DNA of 35,417 nucleotides, taken from positions 1 through 35,417 of the forward strand of contig JAJOKO010000149.1 of assembly GCA_021129825.1 (NCBI GenBank), given 5' to 3'. A program made the translations under genes and the position numbers. Position 1 is the stretch's first letter. The number at the start of each line of letters is the position of its first letter. The notes below the pieces were generated by a model. That model saw only the letters and a list, made by a program, of their open reading frames with translations. It ran no database searches and was not told the DNA's origin. Of the stretch, positions 7,781 through 17,058 are shown one piece after another. This DNA is from Desulfotomaculum sp. GTDB taxonomy: Bacteria > Bacillota > Desulfotomaculia > Desulfotomaculales > Desulfohalotomaculaceae.

Positions 7781-8513
7781 ATGTTTAAAAAAAGATGGCG
7801 CATATTGGGTGCGGTTTTGCTTGTTAGTGCGGTAATCTTCATTTTTTTTTATTGCTGCTATAACTGTATATTTTACGGTGGATAGAAATTTACAACCTAC
7901 TATTATGGCTATGGCTGAAGCACGGGCAATTTTTAAAATTAATGAAGCGGTTAGTGGAGCAGTAAAACGGCAATTAGCAGAAGAAAATTTACACTATCAA
8001 AATTTAGTAGGGATACATAAAGATAATAACGGTAGAGTAGTAATGATGCAAGCTAATACGGTGCAGATAAACCAAGTAGCAGCGGATATTACTCTGGCAG
8101 TCAATGAAACATTAGAGCAAATTAAAGATCAAAAACTAAATATTTCGTTGGGTCAGGCTGTAGGGAGTCACTTTTTAGCCAACTACGGACCAGATGTTAA
8201 TGTTAGCATCTTACCGGTAGGTAGCGTTAAGGTTTTAGTGGCAGATGAATTTGATGCTGTTGGTATTAACCAGGTTAGGCATCGCCTGGCGTTAGATATA
8301 AACACTAAAATAAAAGTGGCAGTACCTTTTTATACTAATAATGTTACTGTACATACCGTAATACCTTTAACGGAAAATATTATTGTAGGTGAGGTCCCTG
8401 AAACTTGGGTAAGTATTCCCGGTGGTTTATTTGGCAAAAGCAGCTTGGGCGAAACGATATTAGGAGGATGTTCGAAAAGTCCGTGCGAAATACCCGGCGA
8501 ATTTCTGCGTTGA
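7781..8513 (+). pseudogene. yunB: Sporulation protein YunB, frameshifted at the N-terminus and with a MITE-altered C-terminus
   Basis: ATG 7781 (RBS-like gggtgggtgg) encodes MFKKRWRILGAVLLVSAVIFIFF, then shifts frame at a T9 run (7842-7850). Removing one T gives ..IFIFFFIAAITVYFTVDRNLQPTIMAMAEARAIFKINEAV.., continuous with ORF 7878..8513 (YunB family). The last residues come from the inserted element. Confidence 0.8.
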
Positions 8514-8616
8514 CTTGGTAATGGCGGCGCTTACGTATTGTTTATACGCTTCACCCCACCATTACCAAGTCGCCTTGAACTTCTTGGGTCTATCGTACTC
8601 CTTTTCGAACACGCAC
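8464..8616. mobile_element. MITE-like element 1 (153 bp)
   Basis: Left end GAGGATGTTCGAAAAG (8464-8479, 3 mismatches) and right end CTTTTCGAACACGCAC (8601-8616); 5-bp direct repeat ATTAG at 8459-8463 and 8617-8621; internal perfect 13-bp inverted repeat GACTTGGTAATGG/CCATTACCAAGTC. Confidence 0.82.
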
Positions 8617-9459: not shown

Positions 9460-9475
9460 GTGCGTGTTCGAAAAG
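9460..9475 (+). repeat. Solo copy of the MITE terminal repeat
   Basis: GTGCGTGTTCGAAAAG, identical to the TIR of element 2, between nadE and yebC; no partner end nearby. Confidence 0.75.
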
Positions 9476-11406: not shown

Positions 11407-11435
11407 TTGACAAAAATCCTGCTAAATGCTATGTT
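11407..11435 (+). promoter_or_regulatory. Sigma-A promoter of the heat-shock operon
   Basis: TTGACA (11407-11412), 17 bp, TATGTT (11430-11435), just upstream of CIRCE. Confidence 0.8.
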
Positions 11436-11448
11436 TTACAAAGAAGTA

Positions 11449-11475
11449 TTAGCACTCATGAACATAGAGTGCTAA
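11449..11475 (+). promoter_or_regulatory. CIRCE operator (HrcA binding site)
   Basis: TTAGCACTC-N9-GAGTGCTAA, perfect 9-9-9 inverted repeat. Confidence 0.97.
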
Positions 11476-11491: not shown

Positions 11492-12529
11492 GTGGAAATG
11501 GATGCTCGCAAAAAAAAAGTACTGTTGGCTATCATTCATGATTACATTTCTACTGCTGAACCGGTGGGTTCTAGGACTGTTTCCCGTAATTATGATTTAG
11601 GAGTAAGTCCGGCTACTATTAGAAATGAAATGGCTGATTTAGAAGAGTCCGGTTTTATTGAACAACCGCATACTTCGGCTGGACGAGTGCCTTCTGACTT
11701 AGGTTATCGCTATTATGTAGATTATTTAATGCCCAGAAAAGCATTAACTATGAAACAAGAAGAAATGATTTGGCGTAATTATCAAGATAAGCAATTGGAA
11801 ATTCATGAAATAATTAACTGTACCAGCCAATTATTAGCCAGTTTAACTGATTACGCGGCAATGATTATAGCCCCGGCGGTGACATTGGTAGCTACTGTTA
11901 AACATATTCAACTAGTTTTAATGAACCCCACCAGAGTGATGATTATTATAGTACTGGATACTGGGATATTACAACATCACTTAGTTGAATTGACAGAAGT
12001 TATCAGGCAATCAGATCTAGAGCAGATTTCAATGGTGCTAAATAACAAACTAGCCGGGTTGAATTTTGATGATATCCGGGTAACGGTTATTAAAAAGATT
12101 CGCTTAGAATTATCAAGATACAAGTTTTTTTTAGATTTAGTGTTAGAAATGATTCAAAATACTCTAACTATAAGGACGCCAAGTAAAATTCATTTAGGTG
12201 GAGTATACAATATTTTGAATCAACCTGAATTTCATAATATAGAGCGGGTGAAAGCTTTGCTAACCCTGTTAGAGCAAAAAGAATTATTGTATGAAATGCT
12301 TGCTGACAGGGGAGACGAAGATTTATCTGTTTGTATTGGTGTGGAAAATATTCAAGAACAGATGAAGGATTGTACAATGGTTACAGCCACGTATTACACC
12401 GGTGATAAAATGGTGGGTGCTATTGGTGTATTAGGACCTACCCGCATGGAATATGCCAAGGTGATTACCATTGTAGAATATTTAGCTAAAATATTGAATC
12501 AAACTTTGGAAAAAATTCAAAGAAAGTAA
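11492..12529 (+). CDS. hrcA: Heat-inducible transcription repressor HrcA
   Basis: MDARKKKVLLAIIHDYISTAEPVGSRTVSRNYDLGVSPATIRNEMADLEESGFIEQPHTSAGRVPSDLGYRYYVD. Confidence 0.96.
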   Translation: MEMDARKKKVLLAIIHDYISTAEPVGSRTVSRNYDLGVSPATIRNEMADLEESGFIEQPHTSAGRVPSDLGYRYYVDYLMPRKALTMKQEEMIWRNYQDKQLEIHEIINCTSQLLASLTDYAAMIIAPAVTLVATVKHIQLVLMNPTRVMIIIVLDTGILQHHLVELTEVIRQSDLEQISMVLNNKLAGLNFDDIRVTVIKKIRLELSRYKFFLDLVLEMIQNTLTIRTPSKIHLGGVYNILNQPEFHNIERVKALLTLLEQKELLYEMLADRGDEDLSVCIGVENIQEQMKDCTMVTATYYTGDKMVGAIGVLGPTRMEYAKVITIVEYLAKILNQTLEKIQRK

Positions 12530-12578
12530 GCGTTATTTCACTCAAAGTGCGTGTTCGAAAAGTATGTTTGTGGTAAAA

Positions 12579-12626
12579 CCCCCCTCCCCTTAATCCCCTC
12601 CCACGAGGGGATTAAGGGGAGGGGGG
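12579..12626. repeat. Perfect 22-bp inverted repeat inside element 2
   Basis: CCCCCCTCCCCTTAATCCCCTC - ccac - GAGGGGATTAAGGGGAGGGGGG. Confidence 0.95.
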
Positions 12627-12649
12627 AACTAAATCTCCTCCCCCTTGAT

Positions 12650-12669
12650 GGGGGAGGGTAGGGTGGGGG
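12650..12669 (+). other. Canonical G-quadruplex motif
   Basis: GGGGGAGGGTAGGGTGGGGG: four G tracts of at least 3 with 1-2 nt loops on the mRNA-sense strand. Confidence 0.75.
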
Positions 12670-12781
12670 TGTGTTTTAAGGTTGATTGGATTAATATGTA
12701 AATTTTAAATGTACTAAATGGTACCCTTTTCGAACACGCACTCAAAACCTTGTGGTATTTTTAAAATGGAGGGAAAAATAC

Positions 12782-14350
12782 TTGAGTTTAAAACAACAGG
12801 CTAGTCCAGCTTCTGAGGTTAATGAAAAAATGGCGGCTTTAATTACTAATGCCAACGCAGTACGGGCTATTGCTTCAGCGGTGGAAGGTACGCTGGGTCC
12901 TAAGGGACTGGATACTATGCTGGTAGACCGGTTTGGCGAAGTAGTGATTACAAATGATGGTGTAACCATTTTAACAATGATGGAAGCCAGTCACCCGGCA
13001 GCTAAGCTGGTTATTAATATTGCTAAAGCACAACAGGAAGAAATTGGCGATGGTACCACTACAGCCACCATCATGGCCGGCACACTGGTCGATACCGGTG
13101 TAAATCAAGTAGCTAAGGGGGTGCCGGTAGCTTGGGTGATTGCAGGATTGAAAATGGGTCTGGCACGAGCCCGGCAGGTGATCGCCACACAAGCGCGATT
13201 AATAGCTAATCTTGATGATGTAGCGATCAAACAAGTGGCAGTGGTAGCCGGGCGGGAACATCAAGATATTGCTGACTTGGTGGTGCAGGCGGCTATTTTA
13301 ATTGGTGAAAAAAAGCTAAAAGATCCTAATTTTAAATTATCAGACACTGTTTTAGCGGAGGAAGGGGCAGAAAACCAAGTATTTGATGGTGTAATCATTA
13401 CCAAGGAACGTTTGAATAAACAAATGCCTCTAAATTTAGAAAAGGCAAAAGTACTGGTAATTGATGATGCTTTAGAACCGGAAGAAATGGAAGAAGAAGC
13501 CTTGGGTACCGAAAGTGGTTTTACCCGTTACTTAGAGTTACAGAATGAGTTTCGCAATAATCTGCAAAAAATCATTGATTTAGGGGTACACTTAGTGCTG
13601 GTAGACCGGGGGGTAGATGATATTGCCGAAGAAATGCTTACTGATGCTGGGATAATAGTGTTGCAACGAGTGGCTAACAAAGAACTGGAAAAAGTAGTGG
13701 AACACTGCGGGGTGCGTATGATCAAACGCACTGGTTTGAAAAAAAATAAATCAGATTTAGAAAAATATATTGGTAGTGCTCAAAAAATAATCAGTAAAGA
13801 AAAACTAGCACAAGTTTGGATTATTGGTGGCAGTGGCAAAGCAATGGCCAGTGTGTTAGTTGGTGCTGCTACTACTGAAGTGGTTGGTGAACGCCAGCGT
13901 ATTGCTAAAGATGCGGCAGCAGCAGTGCAAGCAGCAGTGCGTGGTGGTGTGGTAGCCGGTGGTGGATCGCTGGAATTAGCGGTGGTGCGGGAAGTAGAAA
14001 AATTACGTGAAGGCACTCGCAGCATGGCTTCTTTTGGCGTGGATTGTGTAATAGAAGCTTTAAAGCGTCCGCTAGCCCAAATTGTGACTAACGCCGGTTT
14101 TAATCCTTTGGAAAAAATCAGTGATGTGCTGGTGGCCCAAGCGGAAACAAGTCAAACAGCTTTAGGCGTTAATTGTGACACTGGTGAAGTAGTAAATATG
14201 TTTGAATTAGGGATAGTAGATCCGACTTTGGTTAAAACACACGCCCTAAAAGCAGCCGGTGAAATTGCGGAGGCGATATTAAGGATAGATACTATTATTA
14301 AAATGCGGGATGAAAGTAGTGGTTTAGCAGATGCTGGTGAACCAGCATAA
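12782..14350 (+). CDS. Archaeal-like (Group II/III, thermosome-type) chaperonin
   Basis: [122 protein letters not shown] start after ggaggg. CCT/thermosome signatures rather than GroEL. Confidence 0.93.
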
Positions 14351-16927: not shown

Positions 16928-17039
16928 GATAAAGGAACGAGGAACTAGAATAAAGGAACGAGGAACTAGGATAAAGAAAAAAGCTAGAGCCTAGAGCCTC
17001 GAACCTCGAACCTAGTTCCTCGAACCTCGAACCTAGTAC
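16921..17039. repeat. Array of 17 phased heptanucleotides between dnaK and dnaJ
   Basis: GAACGAG GATAAAG GAACGAG GAACTAG AATAAAG GAACGAG GAACTAG GATAAAG AAAAAAG CTAGAGC CTAGAGC CTCGAAC CTCGAAC CTAGTTC CTCGAAC CTCGAAC CTAGTAC, uninterrupted 7-nt phase. Confidence 0.92.
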
Positions 17040-17058
17040 TTCGCTTCTCAAAAGAAAG

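Follow-up and report, generated by a model that had tools for sequence, protein, structure and literature searches.

The hrcA–Chaperonin Operon and Its Insert

The window analyzed here, meaning the whole 35,417-nucleotide stretch of DNA from Desulfotomaculum sp., carries on its + strand the heat-shock repressor gene hrcA, followed by the gene for a group III (archaeal-like) chaperonin. Between them lies a 195-bp element whose limits could be placed exactly. The main features of this region are as follows:

11407–11435: promoter-like TTGACA-17-TATGTT, upstream of CIRCE
11449–11475, + strand: CIRCE operator, the HrcA binding site, TTAGCACTC-N9-GAGTGCTAA, perfect, upstream of hrcA
11492–12529, + strand: hrcA, heat-shock repressor (TIGR00331, 343 bits, above the cut-off)
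12542–12546, + strand: target-site duplication (TSD) TCAAA, left copy, directly outside the left terminal inverted repeat (TIR)
12547–12741, + strand: complete family-A MITE, 195 bp, with perfect TIRs, a 5-bp TSD and multiple copies across the genome
12547–12562, + strand: left TIR, GTGCGTGTTCGAAAAG, from the genome-wide 16-mer count
12579–12626, + strand: hairpin H1, perfect 22-bp stem with a 4-nt loop, from folding and copy alignment
12637–12670, + strand: hairpin H2, CCTCCCCC-TTGAT-GGGGGAGG, with a G4-capable run, from copy alignment and sequence search
12726–12741, − strand: right TIR, the perfect complement of the left TIR by sequence match
12742–12746, + strand: TSD TCAAA, right copy, directly outside the right TIR
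12782–14350, + strand: group III (archaeal-like) chaperonin, TTG start (PF00118; PDB 5x9u)

The gene names in the earlier note, hrcA and chaperonin, hold by these matches, the nearest natural solved protein to the chaperonin being PDB 5x9u (E = 7e-140), and a perfect CIRCE lies upstream of hrcA. Group III archaeal-like chaperonins normally sit in the dnaK operon (PMC5635000), and here the archaeal-like chaperonin is encoded within the hrcA/dnaK operon. The element begins 17 nt downstream of the hrcA stop and ends, as had been described, 40 nt upstream of the chaperonin TTG at 12782; the GGAGGG found 8 nt upstream of this start leaves the Shine-Dalgarno site outside the element. Further along, between dnaK and the next frame (16930–17050), we observed short repeats (AGGAACGAGGAAC/CCTAGTTCCTCGAACCTCGAAC) whose core 15-mer occurs only three times in 1.42 Mb.

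In 26 of the 27 relatives in which the two genes are linked, the HrcA-to-chaperonin gap is 20–73 nt, compared with 255 nt here, and subtracting 195 bp and one TSD from the local gap leaves 55 nt. The relatives' gaps were obtained by subtracting the match coordinates of HrcA and the chaperonin, and the empty site in relatives is thus seen as a distance rather than as an alignment of intergenic letters. The remaining gap, 241 nt in a distant relative (G025:C1:2171342–2171584), possibly reflects an independent insertion.

A MITE with Many Copies

The earlier note did not recognize that inverted repeats and a target duplication mark the exact limits of the interval, or that it recurs across the genome. 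The inverted GTGCGTGTTCGAAAAG at its two ends matches at 16 of 16 bp, and the 1.58-Mb genome contains 189 occurrences of this 16-mer with up to one mismatch, compared with 0 of its reversed control. Classification of the ends over 1.42 Mb of the genome revealed three element families that have the TIR 16-mer in common: A, to which the hrcA–chaperonin element belongs, B and C. Family A comprises 26 complete copies and 90 single ends (38 left, 52 right), equivalent to 78–116 elements; a second count under looser rules gave 27 complete copies. The complete copies are 132–258 bp long, whereas family B measures 97 bp and family C mostly 153 bp, the latter with ends GAGGATGTTCGAAAAG and GTGCGTGTTCGAAAAG. 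One family-C element of 153 bp, with related ends and the TSD ATTAG, lies in the window at 8464–8616, flanked by a YunB-like sporulation gene and NAD synthase.

The insertions share a duplication of fixed length. Exact 5-bp duplications flank 34 of the 49 complete elements for which both flanks are available, compared with a mean of 2.7 for shuffled flanks, and matches of 6 bp (0) or 4 bp (1) are nearly absent from the same set. In family A, the duplication is perfect in only 15 of 27 copies, the imperfect ones being due to decay or to near-identical repeats having been joined into chimeras during assembly. Target sites are rich in AT, with T at position −5 in 111 and A at position −1 in 112 of 127 ends, and no called gene contains any of 50 complete elements.

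A search of 112 further genomes of the order found the full-length family-A element in none, and family-C-like elements are present in several genomes of the order as well as in a Clostridiales MAG. When public genomes were scanned for the TIR 16-mer, mostly chance matches across phyla came up, the useful ones being the Clostridiales MAG and a Desulfotomaculum MAG.

Family A therefore shows what defines a MITE: TIRs at its exact ends, a TSD of fixed length, short, high-copy and mostly intergenic elements, and ends that match an autonomous insertion sequence (IS). Given the exact ends, the 5-bp duplication, the high copy number and the shorter hrcA–chaperonin gap in nearly all relatives, we conclude with high confidence that the hrcA–chaperonin interval is a gene-free MITE, offering a transposase only its 16-bp ends to recognize, and that it is probably carried as a tolerated passenger.

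Ends of this type also occur next to or within reading frames. A solo TIR (GTGCGTGTTCGAAAAG) at 9460–9475 of the window lies 15 nt upstream of the start of a reading frame that we take to be YebC-like; the AAAAGGGG within this TIR may act as the ribosome-binding site of that frame, in which case a transposon end may have been left as a leader. In relatives, reading frames (L085 871–1527 and L049 1318–2547) terminate within family-C-like ends (...VRVRKGAR and ...VSVRKGAR), so that the elements give host proteins new C-termini.

A Candidate Driver Transposase

Which transposase could have recognized these ends? In a genome of the same family (G003), the identical TIR 16-mer lies 124 nt upstream of the start of a transposase (VQAIQLDLLPMAYYNTLGFDKELIDYIDF...), the frame of which runs into an assembly gap. 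Relatives of this transposase were detected in 11 of 113 genomes, among them the source genome, in which decayed relics remain. In one of these genomes (G021), five of six transposase matches are situated ~120 nt inside a GAGTCTGTTCGAAAAG end. A full-length relative, annotated as a transposase and 64% identical over the query, is encoded on an Alicyclobacillus fastidiosus plasmid (WP_268005238.1). It carries the Pfam domains DUF772 and DDE_Tnp_1, and its IS has the TIRs GAGCGTGTCCGAAAAG/GAGGTTGTCCGAAAAG and a 5-bp TSD, TATTA. The best NCBIfam match of this transposase is IS1182 (NF033551), at 110 bits against a cut-off of 270, which is too low to assign it to IS1182.

From these three sources, the IS and the MITE agree in the sequence of their ends, in how long a duplication they leave and in the composition of the target. 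The driver is thus probably an IS with a DUF772/DDE transposase, and we infer that such an enzyme would have moved the MITE in trans by cutting at TGTTCGAAAAG ends, its insertion duplicating an AT-rich T...A pentamer. The source genome (85.5% complete, 171 contigs) yielded no intact autonomous copy, and a search of viral contigs with the transposase N-terminus gave no match. Orphan ends in the source genome were also followed as a lead to the transposase and rejected, as they reached a nucleotidyltransferase/HEPN-like gene pair instead; this pair, at L092:6646–7442, adjoins a degenerate end resembling that of the IS.

Hairpins, the G4 Motif and the Modular Core

The perfect 22-bp stem and the short-loop G4 motif that first drew attention to the interval are both present. 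The arms of H1, CCCCCCTCCCCTTAATCCCCTC (12579–12600) and GAGGGGATTAAGGGGAGGGGGG (12605–12626), enclose a 4-nt loop, and the G4-capable run GGGGGAGGGTAGGGTGGGGG occupies 12650–12669 on the + (transcribed) strand. Folding analysis indicates that the G4 motif competes with the H2 hairpin. The element as a whole has a predicted folding energy of −102.9 kcal/mol, compared with −61.3 for dinucleotide shuffles (z = −9.2).

The aligned family-A copies are alike at their ends and in their AT-rich right part, and they differ in the G+C-rich core. The core is a patchwork of palindromic modules, namely H1 (CCCTCCCACGAGGGG), H2 (CCCCCTTGATGGGGG) with the G4 run, and H3 (CACCCTTCCCTTCGGGTGGGTACCC), which are found in other repeats too. 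The three modules occur mostly in family A, and H1, H2 and H3 are found without family-A flanks at 5, 10 and 9 places, respectively. The H2 module is present in most family-A copies and also stands without family-A flanks in this genome and in others of the order. On the other hand, the extended H1 arm ATTAAGGGGAGGGGGG, and with it the perfect 22-bp stem, is confined to the window copy, 1 of 27 family-A copies.

Could so perfect a stem arise without selection for its shape? Template switching at inverted repeats is known to homogenize arms and invert spacers (PMC8604942), and both outcomes have counterparts among the family-A copies: H2 is perfected in the copy at L093:17012, and its loop is inverted in the copy at L169:3546. 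Hairpin-dependent template switching would therefore be able to change the core modules by perfecting one arm against the other and by flipping loops. The most designed-looking feature of the element, the unusually perfect H1 stem, is thus most likely a private mutation produced by template switching.

Because the stem is private to one copy and the G4 hairpin is a widespread repeat module, the cassette is not built for the heat-shock operon. Nor is the earlier proposal of a purpose-built regulatory cassette supported by the 78–116 copies in the genome and the 26 of 27 relatives that have no room for it.

Possible Effects on the Operon mRNA

Could the inserted MITE nonetheless have been recruited as an RNA element? 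It would fold into a 16-bp outer stem together with H1 and either H2 or the G4, be cut by an RNase or shield the hrcA 3′ end, and thereby uncouple the mRNA levels of hrcA and the chaperonin. The strong predicted fold is consistent with this, as is the placement of the element just behind the hrcA stop with the Shine-Dalgarno site of the chaperonin left free. Furthermore, there are precedents in ERIC and NEMIS, co-transcribed MITEs that affect the neighboring mRNA (PMC2229807). Orientation relative to the adjacent gene is mildly in line with it: in family A, where "sense" denotes the G-rich strand being transcribed into RNA, the ratio of sense to antisense is 61:39 (p = 0.035), and in family C it is 22:8 (p = 0.016). 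These tests are exploratory, use crude gene calls from open reading frames and may count split elements twice. The bias suggests that the direction in which an element is transcribed is not entirely neutral for the family; it says nothing specific about hrcA.

However, nothing sets the insertion at hrcA apart. Codirectional genes flank 16 of 19 family-A sites, close to the background of 495 of 623 for all intergenic gaps, and we rejected a special link of family A to operons since the gene-pair configuration resembles this background. The stem, found in one copy only, offers no conservation to back selection. The transcribed strand also lacks a terminator-like site: no stem followed by a T-run was found on the + strand, and a single weak site on the − strand is at chance level. 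Classical intrinsic-terminator attenuation is thus unlikely, and the suggestion that the structures attenuate readthrough finds little support. At gathering thresholds, no Rfam model, whether of an RNA thermometer or of another known riboregulator, matched in the window. We regard recruitment as an RNA element as unlikely.

As a tolerated passenger, the MITE is probably co-transcribed with hrcA and the chaperonin, with an effect of RNA folding that would be modest at most. Judging from the predicted fold, a tightly folded RNA between the two genes may affect processing or stability, or the ratio of hrcA to chaperonin mRNA. The sense-orientation bias exceeds the expectation for a strictly neutral passenger and is counted against our explanation, as are the missing intact autonomous copy, the imperfect duplications in family A and the reliance on coordinates for the empty site.

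Assembly and the Mobility of the Palindromes

The core of the window copy might instead be an artifact of assembly, a chimera put together from several near-identical copies of the MITE. The assembler did struggle with this repeat, as 85 contig termini (1.42 Mb) stop within family-A elements and the genome is fragmented by them, and the perfect H1 arm appears in no other copy. However, the left and right TSD copies agree, and 27 relatives have the gene order seen across the element, which shows that the insertion at least is real, and we consider a chimeric core very improbable.

Another view is that what moves is the G+C-rich palindromes, as REP-like units mobilized by a Y1/RAYT transposase, within an incidental TIR frame: the modules do stand outside family A, further genomes of the order contain the H2 segment and a Y1 transposase gene is present in the genome (G000:C9:15538), but the insertion boundaries and the 5-bp duplication match the TIRs and not the palindromes, no H2 palindrome surrounds the Y1 gene, and two genomes carrying the H2 module (G055 and G091) have no detected Y1 gene, which makes this account very improbable for the 195-bp unit. 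The Y1 transposase was likewise rejected as the driver, as no module flanks its gene. Mobility of this kind could still apply to the modules within the element.

Several observations concern the modules themselves. Another repeat, with CAAAGAAAGTTTTCG-like boundaries, holds the G+C-rich hairpin modules of family A; its sites are as follows:

L092:16392–16480
L094:5766
L096:5541
L099:17470
L112:3443
L135:3801
L171:7472

In the family-A copy at L095:4714–4971, a palindrome of ~50 nt (GGCACTCACC...GGTGAGTGCC) is nested in the loop of another hairpin. In three genomes (G055, G090 and G091), the H2/G4 segment is multi-copy without MITE ends, and some copies form close opposite-facing pairs that resemble REP dimers. 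We raise, as a rather doubtful idea, that H1–H3 might constitute mobile or copy-prone DNA in their own right, a second layer independent of the first, which would invade the loops of other palindromes, move between unrelated families (A, C, the CAAAGAAAGTTTTCG-bounded repeat and stand-alone sites) and have its stems perfected by template switching, by a mechanism undescribed for so short a unit.

Relation to Known Elements and Significance

Family A resembles the bacterial MITEs RUP, NEMIS/Correia and ERIC in being ~100–200 bp long and gene-free, with TIRs, a TSD, ~100 mostly intergenic copies and a strongly folded transcript, and it resembles RUP in having ends that match an IS (PMC2229807). 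It differs from them in its TSD, a 5-bp TWWWA where theirs is TA, in its ends, which match a DUF772/DDE_Tnp_1 IS where theirs match IS630, and in its core, a mosaic of shared G+C-rich palindromes. The Alicyclobacillus IS with DUF772 and DDE_Tnp_1 has the same terminal repeat core, TGTYCGAAAAG, and the same 5-bp AT-rich duplication, but it is autonomous and longer, whereas the MITE has no transposase. The palindromes of family A are, like the REP/BIME palindromes of the GTAG and CGTC families, G+C-rich, multi-copy and extragenic, and occur in related genomes (PMC3733652); unlike those, they lie within a TIR-bounded element, and no linkage to a RAYT was found. Family A is thus a new family within the known class of MITEs; its IS driver is plausible, and its core of palindromic modules is unusual. 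Among the open-access papers searched, we found no description of this MITE system, and nothing relevant for the TIR sequence with MITE or for Desulfotomaculum with MITE.

For the hrcA–chaperonin interval, the mobile-element account replaces a plausible regulatory story. The operon offers a natural case in which to ask whether a chaperone operon can tolerate an insert with so stable a fold, and the set of family-A copies allows the perfection of hairpins and the inversion of their loops to be traced.
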